From Tannerella sp. (GTDB lineage Bacteria > Bacteroidota > Bacteroidia > Bacteroidales > Tannerellaceae): DNA of 23,750 nucleotides. The stretch is taken from the NCBI GenBank assembly GCA_031283785.1, contig JAITBC010000111.1, forward strand, positions 1-23,750, written 5' to 3'. The position numbers and the translations under genes were made by a program. The notes beneath the pieces were generated by a model, which made no database searches, had not been told where the DNA came from, and worked only from the letters and a program-made list of their open reading frames with translations. Positions 2,695 to 13,832 of the stretch are shown here, in pieces (the first letter of the stretch is position 1; each line of letters starts with the position of its first letter).

Positions 2695-2833
2695 ACGCCA
2701 ATCTTTGTTTTTTCCTGTTTTATAAATGTTTTATGACTGTAACCTGCTACTTTTTGATTTCCAAAAATCAATTCAGATATCACTGCGAGCGGCAAATTTC
2801 CCGTTCCCGGTTTCAGATTTCGGAGGTGAAAAT

Positions 2834-3694
2834 ATGATGCACGAATTGTTAAATATTAACGAGCATGTCCCCGTTATAGCGCGAAACTACAATTATGAAC
2901 GGTTCACGTATCCATGGCATTTCCACCGTGAATATGAGATTATCTACTTTGCGGAAGGCGACGGGAACCGTTTTGTGGCGGACAACATGGAAGCGATCCG
3001 GCGCGACGACATTATCCTTATGGGCAGCAGTGTGCCTCATTACATGCGAAGCGCTGAAAAATACTACGCTGACGACGCTTCGCTGCGTATTCATGGAGTG
3101 ATTGTCCAGTTCGCCAATGATTTCATGTCGTTTGCTATCAACAATTACACCGACATGATACCCATCCGTGAACTGTTGAAAGCGGCTGACAGGGGTGTAT
3201 ATTTCCCAGCTCCGGAGAATGTCGAACTTATAGAACGAATCATGGAACTTCCCACGCTCAAGGGCGTTAAACGCATGACGCAACTGTTGCATTTATTAGA
3301 CGGAATGGCGCATTTTCAACAGCGGCGCATACTCGGCTCGCCGTACTTCAACCTGCAAACACTCCCGTATATAGACAGCCGGATAGAAAAAGTCCTTGTA
3401 TATATTAACAGGAAGTATGCAGAAAACATCAAACTAAGCGACATTGCATCCATAGCCTCGATGAACACATCGGCTTTTTGCCGCTATTTCAAGGAGAAAC
3501 TGGGCAAATCGCTGGTGAACTATATTCAGGAACTGCGCGTAGGGTATGCCTGCAAATTGTTAACAAGCAGCCGCCTCGATATTGTACAGATATGTATTGA
3601 GTGCGGCTTTAACACGCCAAGCTATTTTAATAAAGTCTTCAAGCGCGACACCGGCCTGACACCTGCAGAATATCGTAAACAGTTCCTGAAATAG
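2834..3694 (+). CDS. AraC-family transcriptional regulator
   Basis: The protein has 286 residues. The N-terminal half is a cupin-like sensor: YPWHFHREYEIIYFAEGDG (residues 26-44) with its two His and a Glu, then a second conserved patch at MGSSVPHYM (63-71). The C-terminal 100 residues are a double helix-turn-helix AraC domain: INRKYAENIKLSDIASIASM (191-210), FCRYFKEKLGKS (215-226), then IECGFNTPSYFNKVFKRDTG (255-274) and TPAEYRKQ at the end. The start at 2834 is fixed by GGAGGTG seven to eleven bases upstream, an unusually strong Shine-Dalgarno for this phylum; the longer frame from 2726 lacks one. It converges with the polysaccharide-lyase operon, with stop codons about 210 bp apart. Control of that operon in response to a sugar is plausible from location but unproven. 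Confidence 0.9.
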   Translation: MMHELLNINEHVPVIARNYNYERFTYPWHFHREYEIIYFAEGDGNRFVADNMEAIRRDDIILMGSSVPHYMRSAEKYYADDASLRIHGVIVQFANDFMSFAINNYTDMIPIRELLKAADRGVYFPAPENVELIERIMELPTLKGVKRMTQLLHLLDGMAHFQQRRILGSPYFNLQTLPYIDSRIEKVLVYINRKYAENIKLSDIASIASMNTSAFCRYFKEKLGKSLVNYIQELRVGYACKLLTSSRLDIVQICIECGFNTPSYFNKVFKRDTGLTPAEYRKQFLK

Positions 3695-3906: not shown

Positions 3907-5097
3907 TTATTTTAATTTCGCGTCCCTGTATCTAAGCAGCGCTTCAATGTAATAATAATCTGCGTACGTAAGCGGCACGTCTACTTCCGATTTGCCCATC
4001 AGGTGGCCGACGGAATGTTTGAGGATGAAATTGCCGTTTGTTCCCGTTTCTGCAAAATATTCGGGCGATGAGAGGGTGCGTATCTGGCGTTCGGCCGTTT
4101 TTATATATTTGTCGGCCTGTTCTTTTTCGACATACGCGCTCAGTTCGATAAGCGCCGAAGCGATGATGGCGCCTGCCGATGCGTCGCGTTTGGCATCGGG
4201 GATATCCGGCGCATTGAAATCCCAATAGGGTATCTTGTCGGCAGGCAGGTTGGGATGATTGATGATAAAGTCGGCAATTCCTTTTGCCTGTTCCAGATAG
4301 GCCGGTATTCGTGTTTCGCGATACATCAGCGTATAACCATACAGGCCCCACGCCTGACCGCGCGACCATGCCGATTCGTCATTGAAACCCTGGTGGGTGT
4401 TCTTCTTCTCCGGCAGACCGGAAACGGTATCGTAGGAAACGACATGATAGGAGCTGTAATCCTGGCGGAAATGATTTTTTATGGTTTTGTCGCTATGTGA
4501 GAGGCAGATATCCTTGAATTTCGGATCGCCGGATTCCTTTGATGCCCAGAGTAGAAATTCGAGATTCATCATGTTGTCGATGATGACGGGGAATTGCCAT
4601 TTGGCATTTGAGTTCCATGATTGTATACATCCTACCGTTGGATTGTAGCGTGTTATAAGCGATTCGGCGCCTGTCAGCAGGATGGATCGGTATGCCATAT
4701 TGCCCGTCAGCCGGTAACCGTTTCCGTAACTGCAATAGAGCATAAAGCCGAGGTCGTGCGTACCGGTGTTATACTGTTCTTTTTCGATCCGGCCGGTGTA
4801 AATCTTCGCGTATTCAAGGAATTTTGTATCATTCGTATGTTGATACAGATACCATAATGTGCCGGGCATAAAACCGCTGCACCACCATTCGGAATTGCTT
4901 GTGATAAGTTTGTTCTGCTCATAGCTTCGTGGGAGTTTGTCGGGTTGCGAGAGGAGGGATTCGGCCATCAGGCGATACTGTTCAACCGAACGGTCAAGCC
5001 TGTCGGCGATCAGGGACTTCATTGATTCTTCCGTTGTACACGACTGGGAGGCGATCAATGTAATAATGCTTGCGATAAAAATTTTTTTCAGTTTCAT
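3907..5097 (-). CDS. GH88-family unsaturated uronyl hydrolase (lipoprotein)
   Basis: The protein has 396 residues and is the last gene of the lyase operon. GH88 enzymes hydrate the 4,5-unsaturated uronic acid that lyases leave at the non-reducing end of oligosaccharides, releasing it from the neighbouring sugar. The fold is an (alpha/alpha)6 barrel. Two expected acidic residues are seen: D115 in THDLGF and D174 in VIIDNMMNLE, matching the two catalytic-site Asp of characterised unsaturated glucuronyl hydrolases. HQGFNDESAWSRGQAWGLYG (residues 235-254) is the family's most recognisable motif. The N-terminus is a hydrophobic signal ending SQSC with C20, consistent with a lipoprotein in the periplasm or on the membrane. 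It lies 36 bp after the beta-helix gene. The exact substrate (glycosaminoglycan, ulvan-like, rhamnogalacturonan or other) cannot be read from sequence. Confidence 0.92.
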   Translation of the reverse strand: MKLKKIFIASIITLIASQSCTTEESMKSLIADRLDRSVEQYRLMAESLLSQPDKLPRSYEQNKLITSNSEWWCSGFMPGTLWYLYQHTNDTKFLEYAKIYTGRIEKEQYNTGTHDLGFMLYCSYGNGYRLTGNMAYRSILLTGAESLITRYNPTVGCIQSWNSNAKWQFPVIIDNMMNLEFLLWASKESGDPKFKDICLSHSDKTIKNHFRQDYSSYHVVSYDTVSGLPEKKNTHQGFNDESAWSRGQAWGLYGYTLMYRETRIPAYLEQAKGIADFIINHPNLPADKIPYWDFNAPDIPDAKRDASAGAIIASALIELSAYVEKEQADKYIKTAERQIRTLSSPEYFAETGTNGNFILKHSVGHLMGKSEVDVPLTYADYYYIEALLRYRDAKLK

Positions 5098-5133
5098 GTG
5101 TTTATTATTAATTAATTATACTTTCGGATTCAC

Positions 5134-6708
5134 TTATTTTTCCCTTATCCCGACGTTCCGGAACATGTACCGGTTTTCGCTCAGGATATATGGTTTGCCG
5201 CTTTTGACGGTCAGATTCCTTATTTCGATTTCCCCGGTTATCATATAGGGGTACTTTTCTACATATTCTTCGCTCGTATATGCGTTGTTGAAAGGAGCGA
5301 AAATTTTCGGACCCGGATAACCGTCCACAGGATTGCCGTCATTTATTACAAGACCGTCAATCGTTATCTTTCCCGGCATATAACACGTATATCCGAAGTT
5401 ATGCTGACCGGAATAGCTGCCGTTTATCAACACGGCGTCGGACGGTGCGCCGTTACGCGGGACATATTCGCAGTTGCGTATGATAAACTCGCCGTTAAAC
5501 GTGCTGCCGTAGTCGCTGCGCAAATTGATGAAGTTCGTGCCGCATACTTTGGTGTTCTCTAAGAGGAATACGCCGCACCCTATGATATTAATACCCTGAT
5601 GACCGAGAACCGAATTTCTTATCGTCGCGTTTGCCACACCCATGTGCGCATCGAAGCGCGAAAACTCCACCCGGTCGAACGTGATATTTTTTGAATAATT
5701 CGAGCCGAAAATGCCCCACAGCGTCCTGTCGTGTATATCGTTTATCTGCTTACAGTTTTTGAATGTCACATTGGTAGATCTGCCAACCGATATGTCGTAG
5801 GAACCCATCGAAACCGGCGCGTTTGCTGCGCCAATCGTAACGTATGTTTTGTGTCCCGACAGTTTGCAGTTTTGTACCGTGACGCCGGTGCAATTCGATA
5901 TCGAGATGAAACCGCCGTATGGAGCGCCGTGGTCAAGTTCTCCCGTAATCACGTGGCAGATCCCGTCAATCACCACGTTGGAGCGCGTTATGCCAATGCC
6001 TCTGGAATAATACGTGTACCGCGATTCGGCCTGGTTGGCGACGGTTGTGAAATGTCCTCCGCGAACGGTCAGTGTTTTTGCGTCAACCGGGTAAGCCGTC
6101 ATCGAAGTAATCCGGTTAAAATCCCATATTATGGGGGCTTTCATATCTACTTTGCCGTTTTTTCCGGCGACGAAAACGTCCGTCTGGTCGGAACCGTTGT
6201 TTTGGTTAAGCCCGTAGCGTATGTAGCGTTTCGTCGTACTGTCGGTCACTGTTATGAAAGAATTGCAGGGAAGTGACAGATCAAGTTTCTTCTGGTTTTT
6301 CACGAGCGTTTTCACGGTTGTTATCCTGGTGGAGGGAAGTTTGGACGAAACATTGAATAGTTGCGCATTGCGGTTTTCGACATTTGTGTCGTCGATGATA
6401 AACCGGGCATCACCCCAGTCGGTATCGGTCTGTATACGGGCGGTTTTGTTTGCCCCGCCGATGTAGTAGGTTGCGCCGGCGTCCGCACGCACGTTCACTC
6501 CCGCTTCATTTGCCGCGTCATGCGCTTTGATAATTGCGTCAAAGTCGTCGGTCACGCCGTCGCCCACAGCTCCGTATTCGCTGTAACAGATGACCTTGCC
6601 GTCCCGGTTTAAACTTGACTCTCCCCTTTCACCGGCGCTTTCAACTGGGCAGGCAGCCCGGACGAAAAGCGGTAATATGAACAATAAAAAATAGAACCTG
6701 TTTCTCAT
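5134..6708 (-). CDS. secreted right-handed parallel beta-helix (pectate-lyase-superfamily) protein
   Basis: This 524-residue exported protein begins with a hydrophobic signal ending RAAC (C20), which could be a lipoprotein box. YGAVGDGVTDDFDAI (residues 45-59) is the signature at the start of Pectate_lyase_3-type beta-helix domains. The rest is a long run of short beta-strand repeats with stacked Asn and Ile/Val, such as SNVVIDGICHVITG, ISISNCTGVTVQNCKLSG, STNVTFKNCKQIND and KNITFDRVEFSRFD, typical of rungs in such helices. Family members include glycoside hydrolases, lyases and epimerases, so the reaction is not settled. The position between a heparinase-like lyase (9 bp upstream) and GH88 (36 bp downstream) argues for action on the same acidic polysaccharide. 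Confidence 0.85.
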   Translation of the reverse strand: MRNRFYFLLFILPLFVRAACPVESAGERGESSLNRDGKVICYSEYGAVGDGVTDDFDAIIKAHDAANEAGVNVRADAGATYYIGGANKTARIQTDTDWGDARFIIDDTNVENRNAQLFNVSSKLPSTRITTVKTLVKNQKKLDLSLPCNSFITVTDSTTKRYIRYGLNQNNGSDQTDVFVAGKNGKVDMKAPIIWDFNRITSMTAYPVDAKTLTVRGGHFTTVANQAESRYTYYSRGIGITRSNVVIDGICHVITGELDHGAPYGGFISISNCTGVTVQNCKLSGHKTYVTIGAANAPVSMGSYDISVGRSTNVTFKNCKQINDIHDRTLWGIFGSNYSKNITFDRVEFSRFDAHMGVANATIRNSVLGHQGINIIGCGVFLLENTKVCGTNFINLRSDYGSTFNGEFIIRNCEYVPRNGAPSDAVLINGSYSGQHNFGYTCYMPGKITIDGLVINDGNPVDGYPGPKIFAPFNNAYTSEEYVEKYPYMITGEIEIRNLTVKSGKPYILSENRYMFRNVGIREK

Positions 6709-6717
6709 ATCGAAAAG

Positions 6718-8667
6718 TTATTTTACTTTAGTAAAAAAGAAAGAATATGTCCCTGTCGGTTTCGGTTGCAGAAGGATCATGCGTATACGTGTCAGGCCGT
6801 CGGGCCAGTAGCGTTGCAGCTGTTGATCCGTTATGTCTGTAAATTCTATTTCGGGGCGGAGGATTTTTGCATCGTAACTCATGTTGAGGTTGAATCCGTC
6901 GCCTTCGAATTTTAGTATGCCGGGTTTTACAATACTGACTTTGCAGTATGTCATGAGGTTCGAACTCGTCACCTTGTCGCTGACTTCTTTCAGTTGATAT
7001 CTGTCGCTTATTGTAAAACTTTTACCGCGTTTCAGCGTATAAGTGCGCACCCAGCTTTCTACTTTGGCGTCGTCGGGATAAGAGCCGGCTATGTCGGTAG
7101 AGAAGACGACCGTACCGGCGTCGGCCTTAAAGGATGTATTTTTTGCTTTAAAGGCCTCGCCTTCTTTCTGGTCGACGCCGTTTATGACGGGCAGGTTATG
7201 ATATCCGGACTGCATGGTCCATATCTCGTAACGACGCGAACTGAATGTTTTGGCTACATATTTCTCGCGTCCGGCATCGACGAGGCAGGGCTTGCCGTCG
7301 AAATACATCAGGCAGGAGCCTATGTCGTTGTGGTTATGACTTTCGGCGTTGAATCCGCCTTTTGCGCCGAAGAAGAATCCGCCGAAGCTGCCTTTGCGGT
7401 CACGTCCGCCGGCTATTTCGGTATCGGGAAACCAGAAATCGGCGACAAGCGCTTCTTCTTTTTCGGCGTTGCGGATCTCGTCAATCAGTTTGAGGTTGCG
7501 CAGTTGTGTGCCGATTTTCCCTCCCATTGATTTTACGCCCCATTGATTCAGTTCCGCAAGAAAGGCTCCGAACTTTTGCATTGCGGGGTCGTTTATCGCT
7601 TTACCGTAGCGGTATACGATGGACGGTTCGCCGCCGGTTTTGGGATCGGCGTCAGCAAAGTTTATAAAATAAGGGGCATGGATGTTTACCTGGTAAAAAT
7701 ACTGACCGATGTTTTTAATCAACTGATTATCGTAAACATCAAATGCTCCGCCGGTAGCATTTCCCATTATTTCGAGACATTCGTAAAGGTAAGCGCCGGC
7801 TGCACCCCAGTATGAAGGGCCTTCGTCGCAACCGCCATCGTCGGGGTAGCCGTTGAGGAACTTGTCTAACGAGAGCAGGATTTTCTGCACGGCGGCGGTT
7901 TTGCGTTGAGGATTGTCTTCGAGCAGGAGGTAGCAGGTCAACATATTGTAGTTAATCCATGGATTCCAATTGTTGGGACGTCCGCCTGTCAGACCCATAT
8001 ACCGGAAATCATCGCGGATAAAATACGGATTAAGGACTTTTTCCATTATTTCCTGTTTCAGACGTTTGGCTATCAAAGGGTGAACATTGTCAAATTCGTC
8101 TTTGAAAAGATACAGCGTCCAGGAAAGATTACTTGCCACTTCTCCTACGCCGAGGTCGACAATCGGATCGTTGACGTCGGGCAATCCCGAACCTGCTTTT
8201 TGCGGACTTAGGTGAGCCGACCAGCCCCACCACGTCTGTTCGCTGTAATACCATACGGCGTTGATGATTTGATCGATGAAGCGGCCGCGGCCTTCGGCAA
8301 GTTCGCCCATTACTAATGAAATAAGCGCGTTGTTGCAGGCGGCATAGACCTGTTGACGGCGGTCGCCGGAACGGATGAATTCGAGATAGTCGGTGGCTTT
8401 GACTGCCGGCCAGTCGTAGTTGAGGTATTTTTCGGCCTGCTCGACGTACGAGCGGCTTATTTCCTGGGGAATAGATGACAGGAAAGCACGGTCTTTGTAG
8501 CCTGAAATTCCGCTCCAGGCGTTTCCTTTGGCGAGCGCACCGGCAAGATTTACGGCCGCAGCTTCGTTCGTCAATATGTTGCGTTCTTTTATTTCGGGCT
8601 GCGCCATGATTGCATGTGTTGATAACATGATGGCGGCGAGCATTGATATTAATATTTGCTTTTTCAT
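6718..8667 (-). CDS. heparinase II/III-family polysaccharide lyase
   Basis: The protein has 649 residues with a signal peptide (MKKQILISMLAAIMLSTHAIMAQ). The N-terminal two-thirds is an alpha-helical toroid with GRPNNWNPWINYNML (229-243) and GYPDDGGCDEGPSYWGAAGAY (273-293), where Y286 is the likely catalytic Tyr. The C-terminal beta-sandwich (Hepar_II_III type) contains ESHNHNDIGSCLMYFDGKP (442-460), with H444 and H446 as metal-site or catalytic His candidates, then VDAGREKY. These enzymes cleave uronic-acid glycosides by beta-elimination and leave unsaturated ends suited to GH88. The Asn-His pair common in characterised alginate and heparin lyases is Asn-Asn-Trp-Asn here. It lies 13 bp after the first lyase gene and 9 bp before the beta-helix gene. 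The polysaccharide lyase family number and substrate are uncertain. Confidence 0.88.
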   Translation of the reverse strand: MKKQILISMLAAIMLSTHAIMAQPEIKERNILTNEAAAVNLAGALAKGNAWSGISGYKDRAFLSSIPQEISRSYVEQAEKYLNYDWPAVKATDYLEFIRSGDRRQQVYAACNNALISLVMGELAEGRGRFIDQIINAVWYYSEQTWWGWSAHLSPQKAGSGLPDVNDPIVDLGVGEVASNLSWTLYLFKDEFDNVHPLIAKRLKQEIMEKVLNPYFIRDDFRYMGLTGGRPNNWNPWINYNMLTCYLLLEDNPQRKTAAVQKILLSLDKFLNGYPDDGGCDEGPSYWGAAGAYLYECLEIMGNATGGAFDVYDNQLIKNIGQYFYQVNIHAPYFINFADADPKTGGEPSIVYRYGKAINDPAMQKFGAFLAELNQWGVKSMGGKIGTQLRNLKLIDEIRNAEKEEALVADFWFPDTEIAGGRDRKGSFGGFFFGAKGGFNAESHNHNDIGSCLMYFDGKPCLVDAGREKYVAKTFSSRRYEIWTMQSGYHNLPVINGVDQKEGEAFKAKNTSFKADAGTVVFSTDIAGSYPDDAKVESWVRTYTLKRGKSFTISDRYQLKEVSDKVTSSNLMTYCKVSIVKPGILKFEGDGFNLNMSYDAKILRPEIEFTDITDQQLQRYWPDGLTRIRMILLQPKPTGTYSFFFTKVK

Positions 8668-8680
8668 GATAAATTGATTC

Positions 8681-10549
8681 TTATTTTACGAGTTTCATTT
8701 TGATCGTTCCCTTGCCGTCGTTGAGTGTCCAGGCGGGGAGGCGCAGTTCGATCCTTTTCAGTCCTTTAATCTGTCGGTCGAGAGCCAGGGGCGCGGGGTC
8801 GAGGGAGATCACCGACAGGGTGTAATGTGGGTGCGAGAGGTTTTTGAGATGAAGCGTCCGGCCGTTTTGCCGCAGGATGGCGCCGTCGTTCGTCGGTTCG
8901 ACATCGGCGGTGGTCATGAGTTGCCATGTTATCAGTTTTGCTTCTGGAAGTGTTTCGATTTCGTCGGTTATGACCAGGGACGAAGGGCTGTCTTTTGTAA
9001 ATGTACGCCTGGCGTTTTTCAGCAGGTCGGCGTATGGGGCGGTTATGTCGAAGATGGCTTCGGGACTGGCGCCTTCGCGGACTTCGAGCAGTGTGGCCTG
9101 TCCGTCGACGCGGTGCAGGCGGTCGTTGACGGTGAGCGTACTGTGTCCGTAATTATTTTTGGTGATGAGCGTCCACCTTTCACATTCCTGACAGCTGCCC
9201 CAGAGGTCGAAACCCGTCTGTTCGAGTTCATTATAGTCCTGGTTTCCGGGGTCGACGACCCAGCGGACGCTGTCGAGTTCGAAGATGAACGATCCGGCGT
9301 CCATATTGCCGTGGCTGGTTGTGGCGCGGCCGCCCTTGCCTCCGAAATAGTAACCGTTTTCTCCTGTGAAGACTGCGATCGGGTTATGCCCGCGTCCATA
9401 CCATACAGATGGTACGTCGATACCCGTTTTTTCTTCGTATTGTGATATCCATACGAGGGCGGCTCCTCCGAGACGTGAGAGTTTGCCCAATTCTTCGGGA
9501 GACTGTGACATGCGTTCTTTTTCGAAGAAGGCTTTGTTGCCGGTTTTTGAGGCGAACCATGCGAGGACTTCGTCGAAGCTTCTCCCGCGGCGGTCGCCGC
9601 AGTCGGCAAAGTTGTAATACCATCCGGACGGGGCGTCGCAGATCACTCTGAACATGGCGCTTGCCATGAAGGCTTCGTGACGTGCATGTCCGAAATCAGT
9701 GCCGAAAGCGCTTTCGAGCATTGCTGCTGTGATGACGGAGAATCCCGTACCGTAGCCCCAGTATGTGGAGCCTTCGGGGTAGACGCCGTCGGGAAGGTAT
9801 GACGACAGGGCGTGCGGTATGCCGTCGAGCGCACGGCGGATGGTTTTGGCGGCAAGGTCGGGGTCTTTTTCGGCTATTGCGATCGATGCTGCAATCATGC
9901 CTCCGTTGCAGACCTGATTCCAGTTGTTCGTCCCCGACGCCCAGCCGGGGTCTTTGCCGTTTTCGGGCCAGCCCGGTTTGATGCCTTTTTCTATCAGTGC
10001 GTTTATCGCCAGCTCGACCGTCGACGCGGGCAGGCGGTCGGCGCACCAGTCGATTGCCAGCGCTACGGCCATCGACATTTCGGCTACGTCGAGGTAGTGC
10101 GACGGGTTCCAGTCGGTGAAATTGCATACGGCAACGACTTCGTCGTTCAGGCGTTTGAGTATCGCCGGGTCTTTTTCAATCCTGTATACAATGCCGAGCA
10201 TGTTGACGCGGTATAGCATCTCGCGTGAGACGGCAAGAAGCCGGCGGCCTTCCTGTATGCGCTCCAGCAGTGGCTTGGCGGTTATCTCGCGGGCGTTAAG
10301 GCGGATTGCTTCGTAAATGTTTTTGACGACCGGGTCGGTACTGAGTTTCTTCTTCAGATGATGTTCTGTTGAAGAGTTCAGCACTAATCTGGGATGCGTT
10401 TTTCGCAGGTTTTTCTTCAGCCATGCTGCCGACATCGGGTTGTCGAGCTTCTGCAGGCCGTCTTCATGCTGTGCCGACAGGCTTCCGGCGATGCTTCCGG
10501 CGATGAGGAGGCTGATTGTAAGTAGCGATGTGTTGAATAAATGTTTCAT
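8681..10549 (-). CDS. heparinase II/III-family polysaccharide lyase (first gene of operon)
   Basis: The protein has 622 residues with signal peptide MKHLFNTSLLTISLLIAGS...SAQ. The helical domain carries GTNNWNQVCNGGM (206-218) and DGVYPEGSTYWGYGTGF (254-270), with Y263 as candidate catalytic Tyr. The beta-sandwich part has TTSHGNMDAGSFIFELDSVRW (410-430) with H413, followed by VVDPGNQDY. This layout is that of heparinase II/III-like lyases; the NNWNQVCNGG form is a recurrent subfamily in Bacteroidetes. Its motifs differ from those of the next gene (HGN rather than HNHND), so the two probably attack different linkages or lengths rather than being a recent duplication. It is the promoter-proximal gene, and by eye it is among the more GC-rich genes here, which explains the many long antisense open frames over it. 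Confidence 0.87.
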   Translation of the reverse strand: MKHLFNTSLLTISLLIAGSIAGSLSAQHEDGLQKLDNPMSAAWLKKNLRKTHPRLVLNSSTEHHLKKKLSTDPVVKNIYEAIRLNAREITAKPLLERIQEGRRLLAVSREMLYRVNMLGIVYRIEKDPAILKRLNDEVVAVCNFTDWNPSHYLDVAEMSMAVALAIDWCADRLPASTVELAINALIEKGIKPGWPENGKDPGWASGTNNWNQVCNGGMIAASIAIAEKDPDLAAKTIRRALDGIPHALSSYLPDGVYPEGSTYWGYGTGFSVITAAMLESAFGTDFGHARHEAFMASAMFRVICDAPSGWYYNFADCGDRRGRSFDEVLAWFASKTGNKAFFEKERMSQSPEELGKLSRLGGAALVWISQYEEKTGIDVPSVWYGRGHNPIAVFTGENGYYFGGKGGRATTSHGNMDAGSFIFELDSVRWVVDPGNQDYNELEQTGFDLWGSCQECERWTLITKNNYGHSTLTVNDRLHRVDGQATLLEVREGASPEAIFDITAPYADLLKNARRTFTKDSPSSLVITDEIETLPEAKLITWQLMTTADVEPTNDGAILRQNGRTLHLKNLSHPHYTLSVISLDPAPLALDRQIKGLKRIELRLPAWTLNDGKGTIKMKLVK

Positions 10550-10614
10550 GATATGTGTATGTGTGTATATGAATTTAATATGATGTTTTGATGATTTGTG
10601 ACGACTTGCGACTG

Positions 10615-10622
10615 CAAATATA
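10615..10622 (-). promoter_or_regulatory. -7 box of the lyase operon promoter
   Basis: Read on the minus strand this is TATATTTG, a full match to TAnnTTTG, about 65 nt before the ATG at 10549. A TTTG-type -33 is not seen 19-21 nt upstream; that region is A/T-rich. A weak -33 would fit a promoter that depends on an activator bound farther upstream, where the 21-bp array begins at 10671. Confidence 0.45.
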
Positions 10623-10670
10623 ATCTTTTTTTTTCGATAAAATAGCCGTTTGCGGCATATTTTCTGTTCG

Positions 10671-10922
10671 CATCATATATGTGATTATTTTCATCACACA
10701 TGTGACGGACTTCATCACGTGTGTGATTTTTTTCACCACGTGTGTGATTTTTTTAATAACATGTGTGATGGTTTTCACCACGTGTGTGATTTTTTTTACC
10801 ACATGTGTAATTTTTTTCATCACATGTGTGATGGTTTTCATCACATGTGTGATTTTTTTAATTACATGTGTGACGGACTTCATCACATGTGTGACGGATT
10901 TCATCACATGTGTTATACGGGG
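10671..10922. repeat. 21-bp tandem repeat array, 12 units, each with a dyad
   Basis: Twelve consecutive 21-bp units start at 10671, 10692, 10713, 10734, 10755, 10776, 10797, 10818, 10839, 10860, 10881 and 10902, with no change in spacing. Most have the core ATCACATGTGTGAT (6-bp arms ATCACA / TGTGAT around TG; centre CACATGTG), and the remaining 7 bp are a variable T-rich or GGAC-type spacer. The first and last units are the most diverged. Because 21 is a multiple of 3, all six frames tend to stay open, giving spurious ORFs with 7-residue repeats. The array lies between the lyase operon promoter and the 11-bp array. Confidence 0.93.
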
Positions 10923-10930
10923 GCGATCGG

Positions 10931-11073
10931 CGTGCGTTCGGAATGTGTTCGGCATGCGCTCGGCGTGTGTTCAACGTGTGTTCAACGTGTGTTCAACGTG
11001 CGTTCGGACTGCGTTCAGACTTCGTTCGGCGTGCGTTCGGACTGTGTTCGGACTGTGTTCGAACTGCGTTCGT
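10931..11073. repeat. 11-bp tandem repeat array, 13 units
   Basis: Thirteen 11-bp units follow without indels, of the type CGTGCGTTCGG, CGTGTGTTCAA and ACTGTGTTCGG. The TTC core is nearly invariant (one unit has CTC), and variation is mainly at units' first two bases, the T/C in the G-T/C-G centre and the last two bases. It starts 8 bp after the 21-bp array and shares no obvious unit with it. Confidence 0.9.
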
Positions 11074-11092
11074 GCGGCGACATTGGCGTTCT

Positions 11093-11127
11093 GGCTGCTG
11101 GCTGCTGGCTGCTGGCTGCGGGTTGCT
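11093..11127. repeat. 7-bp tandem repeat (GGCTGCT)
   Basis: Three exact GGCTGCT units and two diverged ones (GGCTGCG, GGTTGCT) in a row. The following 30 bp stay G/C-rich (GGCGGGCGGCG-like) without clean units. It resembles the 7-bp array at 13627-13682. Confidence 0.75.
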
Positions 11128-11170
11128 GGCGGGCGGCGACATTTGCGGGCGGCGCGGCGGCGTAAAAAAA

Positions 11171-11220
11171 TGGCGGTATTTTACGTCATGCGCCTGCGCA
11201 TGTTGAATAAAATACCGCCA
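11171..11220 (-). terminator. large nested hairpin, intrinsic terminator for the minus strand
   Basis: Perfect 13-bp outer arms TGGCGGTATTTTA (11171-11183) and TAAAATACCGCCA (11208-11220), with a nested perfect stem CATGCGC (11187-11193) / GCGCATG (11196-11202) around CT. On the minus strand the hairpin is followed directly by seven T (11164-11170), the form of a Rho-independent terminator. It lies 25 bp after the stop of the broken gene at 11246-11683. Confidence 0.8.
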
Positions 11221-13434: not shown

Positions 13435-13626
13435 ATCCGTGTATTTTAAAATTAAAAATTCGACACGGTAAAGGAACAATTTTTTTTGCAATTATCATAG
13501 ACAACCGGAAAATAAATTCTCGCTGAAAATCATATCGAAGGCGAACCGTTTTATTGTAAAGATTCCGTGACCGTCATGTCTGCGGGAAGAAAAACAGATG
13601 CGACGCCATCATTCGGTGGAAACTGC

Positions 13627-13682
13627 GGCGGTCGGCTGGCGGCTGGCGGCGGGCGGCGGGCGGCGGCTGGCGGCGGGCGGCG
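13627..13682. repeat. 7-bp G-rich tandem repeat (GGCTGGC / GGCGGGC)
   Basis: Eight 7-bp units in register: GGCGGTC, GGCTGGC twice, GGCGGGC twice, GGCGGCT, then GGCGGCG twice. All the G-runs are on the plus strand. It lies in the 323-bp gap between the phoH-like gene and mutS2, otherwise empty apart from the 58-bp repeat. Confidence 0.8.
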
Positions 13683-13696
13683 GCAGACGAAGTCCC

Positions 13697-13832
13697 GGCT
13701 ATTCCAGTTCTACGACACATTCAAGCAGCCTGTTCATTTGACGACGTATAGCGGGGCTATTCCAGTTCTGCGACACATCCAAGCAGCCTGTTCATTTGAC
13801 AACGTATAGCGGGGCTATTCCAGTTCTACGAC
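13697..13832. repeat. 58-bp tandem duplication including the 3' end of mutS2
   Basis: GGCTATTCCAGTTC starts at 13697, 13755 and 13813, exactly 58 bp apart. The first two copies are full length with few differences; the third is cut to 20 bp because it enters mutS2. On the minus strand the repeat holds the last codons of mutS2 (V-E-L-E-stop), so each extra copy has a tiny ORF, M-N-R-L-L-x-C-V-x-E-L-E-stop. Confidence 0.92.

Follow-up and report, generated by a model that had tools for sequence, protein, structure and literature searches.

The window, by which we mean the whole stretch of DNA that was analysed (23,750 nucleotides from a Tannerella sp.), contains on its minus strand a putative lyase operon and, upstream of the first lyase gene, a tract of tandem repeats. 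The features to which we refer below are as follows.

2726-3694: AraC-type gene
3907-5097, minus strand: GH88-like protein of the putative operon (open reading frame and Pfam)
5134-6708, minus strand: protein of the putative operon that gave no Pfam match (open reading frame)
6718-8667, minus strand: second heparinase-like protein of the putative operon (open reading frame and Pfam)
8681-10549, minus strand: heparinase II/III-like protein, first gene downstream of the array (open reading frame and Pfam)
10575-10955, minus strand: open and putatively coding frame through the array, with ITHVMKK-type heptads (list of open reading frames)
10614-10622, minus strand: −7-like box TATATTTGC of the lyase promoter (motif found in the sequence)
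10671-10922, minus strand: array of twelve 21-bp dyad units, with a gene-ward unit of approximately GATGAAAACCATCACACATGT (Tandem Repeats Finder, alignment and inspection)
10923-11072, no strand assigned: second satellite, of period 11/22/33 and GCGTTCGGACT type (Tandem Repeats Finder)
11091-11130, no strand assigned: third repeat, of period 7 (CTGGCTG; Tandem Repeats Finder)
11164-11220, minus strand: hairpin with T-run, probably terminating the DUF5627 gene (by eye)

The part of the putative operon after its first gene extends over 3907-8667 (minus strand). The box TATATTTGC, which we take to be a Bacteroidetes-type −7 box, is placed on the minus strand between the array and the lyase start, at 48 bp from the array, and the lyase start codon is 121 bp from the array. 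This agrees with the initial annotation of this DNA, in which the array was put about 50 bp upstream of the −7 box; as was also stated there, this promoter has no clear −33 box, no TTTG being seen by eye at −33. One intergenic gap of the window is filled by three satellites (10671-11130), with the 11/22-bp satellite abutting the 21-bp array at zero gap, and this composite tract of 21-, 11/22- and 7-bp repeats sits between the terminator-like hairpin and the lyase promoter. Elsewhere in the window, the DNA between a PhoH-like gene and a gene that is presumably MutS2-like has, at 13625-13832, repeats of 7/24 bp that are rich in GC and 2.3 copies of a 58-bp repeat. By the PhoH protein, the closest named relatives of the window are Tannerella sp. 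metagenome bins (89% for L015, 83% for L001 and 82% for L035, best segment), which presumably come from termite guts, with the oral T. forsythia being farther away (72-73%). Satellites of 21 and 42 bp also occur in related bins (L152:2941-3414, L003:3-262 and L001:5087-5348), two of them near the phoH locus.

The array itself consists of twelve consecutive 21-bp units that, on sequence inspection, fill 10671-10922 exactly, as had been described before. Tandem Repeats Finder gives 10671-10913 with period 21 and score 241, and the wrap-around alignment of the array with its own consensus gives 210 matches, 36 substitutions and 0 indels. It is noted that 21 bp is two turns of B-DNA. An ATCACA-TG-TGTGAT dyad had been ascribed to each unit, which holds for the consensus and not for the single units: the exact 14-mer ATCACATGTGTGAT is present in 2 of the 12, and the 6-bp arms pair, in the order of the units, at 5, 5, 5, 4, 5, 4, 4, 6, 6, 4, 5 and 5 out of 6 positions. 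The probability of two perfect 6-bp arms in a shuffled consensus unit is 0.005, and the symmetry score of the whole consensus unit is not significant relative to shuffles (p = 0.18). It had also been claimed that the dyad is better conserved than the spacers, and a weak contrast of this kind is present, 17 of the 168 cells in the dyad being variant as opposed to 25 of the 84 in the spacer (p = 0.007 by permutation), where the chosen register ranks third among the 21 possible ones and the units are non-independent. A CRISPR array was considered and rejected for these repeats, the 7-bp spacers recurring among the units and not being unique.

It might be expected that such an array is an operator with multiple sites that is dedicated to the lyase operon, with an AraC-type or CRP-like regulator as the candidate binder, as had been suggested in the initial annotation. 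The array adjoins the promoter, the promoter has no clear −33 and the window contains an AraC-type gene, all of which would be in line with this reading. The orthologous lyase loci, however, argue against it. Close orthologues of the first lyase are present in 4 of the 13 genomes searched, with any match in 10 of the 13; that in L062 starts too close to the contig end for its upstream region to be read and was left out. The three readable ones are L061 (84%, with phoH sequence beside it by blastn), L064 (88% in the best segment, its protein interrupted by a gap; DUF5627 sequence adjoins it by blastn) and L063 (77%, different neighbours), L061 and L064 both being close to phoH, and by both inspection and the lag test none of the three has an array upstream of the lyase, the very observation at relatives that the annotation had set against its own reading. 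The distance from the DUF5627 stop to the lyase start is 140 bp in L064 versus 696 bp in the window, a similar hairpin is seen by eye 3′ of the DUF5627 gene in L064, the array-less L061 retains the TATATTTGC box, and the lyase promoters of L061 and L064 seem by eye to have a −33 TTTG. Since the array is absent at the orthologous promoters, the repeat tract is probably a lineage-specific gain at the window locus; loss in the other lineages would also give this distribution, addition being the simpler. It is also observed that the L064 lyase, the orthologue nearest to the window, is without about residues 129-198 (matches at 15-128 and 199-453).

The geometry of the units also differs from that of CRP sites, which is TGTGA-N6-TCACA. 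As in a CRP/FNR-type operator, TGTGA and TCACA half-sites are present in the window units, but they are arranged as TCACA-N2-TGTGA or, across the spacer, as TGTGA-N9-TCACA, so that they do not have the arrangement of a CRP site; moreover, here there are at least 10 phased copies, with the dyad sequence changing by locus. Multivalent, helix-phased short repeats are also known from phased operator or centromere arrays, among them the omega-repressor heptads of pSM19035, in which 7-bp units of a single sequence follow one another directly, and from the multi-site arrays of Lrp-type proteins. The ATCAC half-sites of the window resemble the omega heptad, which we take as a lead only, whereas the half-sites here are inverted and 2 bp apart and the sequences are private to loci. 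Because arrays upstream of homologous genes differ in their dyads (see below), and with the same array family at unrelated genes, one CRP-like or local AraC-type protein would hardly account for the class, and we regard a dedicated operator of the lyase operon as very unlikely.

The sequence family of the window array recurs at other loci. Of the 123 family genomes, 6 have pairs of TCACATGTGTGA at 21-bp spacing with at most 3 mismatches, the control giving 0, and 6 have exact TCAC-N4-GTGA pairs, the two patterns combined giving 10 genomes; note that the second search has no clean null, as its reversed control, which also matched (14 in G009, 1 in G021), is itself a 21-bp dyad pattern. In the order-wide sample 1 of 392 other genomes matches, with a different core. 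The fifteen arrays of this family, the window included, have unrelated-looking neighbours and mixed orientations, and the spacer is partly common (GTGACGGACTTCATCAC in the window and GTGACAGACTTCATCAC in G009). Six arrays of G009 have a common flank, the copies having in common the array and roughly 120-165 bp of flank. A miniature transposable element, which would be recognised by terminal repeats and defined ends of its dispersed copies, was considered on this ground; by eye, the flank of the G009 copies is missing next to the window array. A phage or plasmid origin was rejected: the exact array pattern has 0 matches in viral_contigs, the array query has no match in plasmids and the longer window query none in phages (both by BLAST with the low-complexity filter on). 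Concerning the two gene families described below, neither RRWHG nor DYLP has a confirmed relative in viral_contigs, and DYLP has no relative in plasmids or phages. PADLOC gave no hit.

Beyond this sequence family, the related genomes contain a general class of satellites. Contigs were sampled in numbered order, at most 20 kb each (C1-C37 of G009, 19 contigs of G013, 20 of G001 and C1-C40 of G108), with G009 and G108 chosen for their pattern matches, G001 and G013 for being closely related; the named related genomes are almost all metagenome bins, and the genes were called by an open-frame script. Strong satellites, defined as those with at least 3 copies and a score of at least 100, number 44 in 522 kb of G108, 6 in 155 kb of G013, 6 in 352 kb of G009 and 3 in 210 kb of G001, and 51 of these 59 have periods of 20-23 bp (32) or 41-45 bp (19), with mostly unrelated sequences. 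Single related genomes contain several families that are equal in length and unlike in sequence, G108 for example having, in its 522 kb, 27 arrays with a 20-23-bp unit. The control loci gave 2 strong satellites in 272 kb of other Bacteroidales and Chlorobiota, with periods of 84, a multiple of 21, and 100, and 3 in 164 kb of Brachyspira and spirochaetes, with periods of 18, 102 and 102. Relative to shuffles, the dyad symmetry has a mean z of 1.54 for the 20-23-bp units and 3.18 for the 41-45-bp units (p <= 0.05 in 11 of 32 and 13 of 19), and relative to nearby GC-matched DNA the z is 1.55 for 20-23 bp and 2.84 for 40-45 bp (12 of 32 and 12 of 19). Dyads are present in many units of the class, not in all. 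A second dyad axis 21 bp away in the 42-bp units was also considered and set aside, being weak (p 0.03) and partly implied by geometry. One 41-bp satellite family, with AAATTCCGC and GAATTTTT, is common to G001 and G108 (L181:3619-3847 and L210:3448-3622).

As to position, 1 of the 52 bulk arrays is inside a called gene, 9 are at a contig edge, 13 are between divergent genes, 18 between co-directional and 11 between convergent ones, the array-free gaps being 62 divergent, 147 co-directional and 29 convergent. Gaps between convergent genes thus account for 11 of the 42 bulk arrays with both neighbours versus 29 of 238 in the background, an excess (p = 0.028). Taken together, the arrays are intergenic and, if they favour any setting, it is that between convergent genes, with two gene families keeping arrays at their start.

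Judged by its sequence, the window array fits the published constant-size satellites in size and behaviour. The sections of the study of Subirana and Messeguer (PMC8161180) considered here describe, for Bacillus, satellites of 20-21 and 52 nt whose size is fixed and whose sequence varies, and mention 20-23-nt satellites in many groups; most families are species-specific, with sharing between close species allowed. At least 4 tandem copies define a 20-23-nt satellite, and the window array has 12 units of 21 bp. The two sets are alike in the unit of two helical turns, in the presence of several unrelated families per genome, in the intergenic placement (here 1 of the 52 bulk arrays is inside a gene, the window array being an open frame with some codon-position bias) and in that the function is unknown. 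They differ in that the sections considered treat Bacillus, with other groups in passing, whereas ours are from Tannerella-related Bacteroidales, and in that the family of the window array is common to several related genomes (10 of 123), where most of theirs are species-specific. Those sections mention no dyad per unit, no scarcity of indels and no linkage to two gene families, the literature search made here covering open-access papers.

The first of the two gene families, which are multicopy and uncharacterised, became apparent in G009, where the copy of the shared flank at C82 encodes the start of a protein and the N-terminus of the family member P0009 nearly matches the frame beside the C43 array; the array has been copied there along with a fragment of a gene of this family, RRWHG. 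Intact RRWHG members have 303-330 aa (for example L265:1614-2522) and no Pfam, NCBIfam or PHROG assignment, with weak hits only; there are 196 database relatives, all hypothetical or unnamed among the 120 listed. Among the 123 family genomes, 20 contain RRWHG, with as many as seven matches in one genome, and it is present in 0 of the 392 other genomes of the order-wide sample. Clustering of the frames flanking 78 arrays gave the second family, DYLP, at nine arrays (one doubtful). It has about 220 aa (for example L143:5997-6656) and likewise no domain-family assignment; among the 120 listed of its 284 relatives are Prevotellaceae, Planctomycetaceae and Opitutaceae, and it is present in 41 of 123 family genomes. 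The predicted structures of both families comprise a helical bundle and a fibronectin-III-like sandwich (Foldseek; pLDDT 77 and pTM 0.45 for RRWHG, pLDDT 92 and pTM 0.56 for DYLP).

Starting from the arrays, a DYLP gene is found by tblastn within 900 bp at 8 of the 54 bulk and window arrays, with one weak RRWHG match. Starting from the genes, by one lag criterion with a hand-set threshold of 0.58, a 21/42-bp array is upstream of 17 of 20 RRWHG and 18 of 20 DYLP copies, which were hand-picked out of the matches listed (52 for RRWHG, more than 150 for DYLP) with intact starts and different genomes preferred, versus 28 of 594 background genes, which come from four genomes (2/173 in G009, 2/76 in G013, 1/96 in G001 and 23/249 in G108) and include some DYLP genes, the sampled copies being from more genomes. 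The misses are L271 (0.57), L277 and L279, and L296 and L301. Outside the family set, 7 of 9 DYLP copies from seven order-sample genomes pass the lag test, the misses being L312 (0.57) and L309. The dyad cores vary between loci, as exemplified by CACCGCGGTG, CCCGTACGGG, TTCCCGGGAA, CTCGCGCGAG and TTCACGTGAA. Read gene-ward, the window array agrees with the RRWHG arrays in its spacer GATGAAAACCATC and in its orientation, and it therefore looks like a solitary array of the RRWHG type. In L278 (G101:C87, 190-480) the spacer flips from GATGAAAACCATC to GATGGTTTTCATC within one array, with the palindrome unchanged.

Spacing within the arrays is kept to a high degree: in 33 arrays, a set selected for a clear 21-bp period, 1216 substitutions versus 26 indels were counted, with 20 of the indels in insertion/deletion pairs and 23 of the 33 arrays without any, and whole-unit turnover could also erase indels. 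As for symmetry, both arms are changed in 51 cells versus 56.4 expected, which is no excess; pairing is restored in 34 of the 51, a single array accounting for 12 of the 34. Transcribed repeats acting as RNA hairpins could in principle account for the symmetry, as the dyads could fold and, in the part of PMC8625621 considered here, satellites of Bacillus coagulans are reported to be transcribed. On the gene-ward strand, however, the mismatched arm pairs are G-T in 157 cases versus A-C in 155 (43 of 47 arrays, the 4 with a weak dyad having been dropped by the script beforehand), so that there is no excess of G-U-compatible pairs and no sign of selection on RNA pairing in these 43 arrays; such strand-neutral mismatches fit a role at the DNA level. 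With, in addition, no Rfam match within the window and the promoter box placed between the array and the gene, we find RNA hairpins hardly credible.

Note also that 21 bp is seven codons, and the array might be a short coding repeat that gives a heptad peptide (ITHVMKK in the window) upstream of the gene. In the window, the frame stays open over 10955-10575 and the array has codon-position counts of 15/11/30 (p = 0.005, with overlapping comparisons); in 26 arrays, with MK-like frames preferred, the counts are 321/257/373 (p = 2.4e-5), and 272 of 951 substitutions in these arrays are synonymous versus 247.9 expected. By contrast, when the frame is chosen by stops alone, the bias is weak in 17 RRWHG arrays (433/386/448, p = 0.08) and gone in 23 DYLP arrays (279/300/299, p = 0.62), and 21-bp repeats give open frames by chance. 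Moreover, the class includes arrays of 41, 43 and 23 bp, those of 41 and 23 bp disrupting the frame, the database search with the window heptad peptide scored nothing (1338 candidates shared words), and at 26 loci the dyads are above the synonymous-codon null on average (5.69 versus 4.60, mean p 0.26). Coding heptads, which the open, position-3-biased frame of the window had suggested, are unsupported in the DYLP arrays and may apply to the window array; as an explanation of the arrays we consider them improbable.

We assign the window array to a class of helix-phased dyad satellites of Tannerella-related Bacteroidales and propose that it may serve, upstream of the promoter, as a platform for many protein dimers, a reading to which we give somewhat less than an even chance. 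In this model, a small dimeric or nucleoid-type protein would bind dyad after dyad along the same side of the helix, and the bound protein would bend or organise the DNA beside the core promoter and so adjust the expression of the gene behind it. Selection would preserve the spacing and the symmetry more than any single motif, and the array sequences would turn over by homogenisation within each array. The period, the dyad excess, the scarcity of indels and the linkage to genes come from measurement, the protein and a possible effect on transcription from inference. The geometry of the window, with array, box and gene in this order, is as at the gene-linked arrays. A featureless minisatellite is unlikely, because the near-exact 21-bp phasing, the dyads and the position upstream of genes recur in many arrays; to this extent the earlier preference for an operator or DNA-bending array over a neutral minisatellite is upheld, the part that tied it to its own operon being unsupported. 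Counted against the platform are the array-less orthologous lyase promoters, the arrays between convergent genes, the few DYLP or RRWHG neighbours and the lack of an excess of both-arm changes, and also the selection of the 33 arrays by their period, given that arrays of 41, 43 and 23 bp occur, and the origin of the background genes in four genomes.

The main and strong rival of the platform is a satellite with no function of its own that is carried along with spreading genes, which we hold to be a serious possibility, if not the one we favour. It would arise by slippage and unequal exchange, with copying that favours two-turn dyad units and whole-unit turnover that removes indels, and the link to gene families would exist because the genes spread together with their upstream DNA. 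The three repeat types at one spot in the composite tract, the orthologues with no array, the many solitary arrays, some of them between convergent genes, and the G009 array copied with an RRWHG gene fragment are all as expected from it. By contrast, the few indels at 15-25% divergence speak against it, and so does the fact that 35 of 40 gene starts retain arrays with unrelated sequences, which simple co-spreading would not predict.

A more far-reaching reading of these arrays can also be put forward, which we regard as doubtful. Each member of RRWHG and DYLP would own about ten upstream palindromes at two-turn spacing, with the sequence renewed at each locus and the symmetry, phase and position kept, and the cell would recognise the geometry, i.e. 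a dyad every 21 bp, and not a motif; ordinary genes such as those of the lyase operon would acquire such arrays. If this is true, these private palindrome arrays would be a new kind of cis-element. The fixed unit size and free sequence of bacterial satellites are an open puzzle in the sections of PMC8161180 considered here, and the puzzle gains three handles, namely the dyad tendency, the few spacing indels and the array upstream of 35 of 40 sampled gene copies, which make function testable and give a route to the protein, if one exists.

Finally, we note that a dyad excess is also seen on average over the 26 Bacillus 52-nt repeats that were tested, as circular units, out of the 27 printed in Table 1 of PMC8161180, with a mean z of 1.37 relative to shuffles (SE 0.26) and 9 of the 26 at p <= 0.05.
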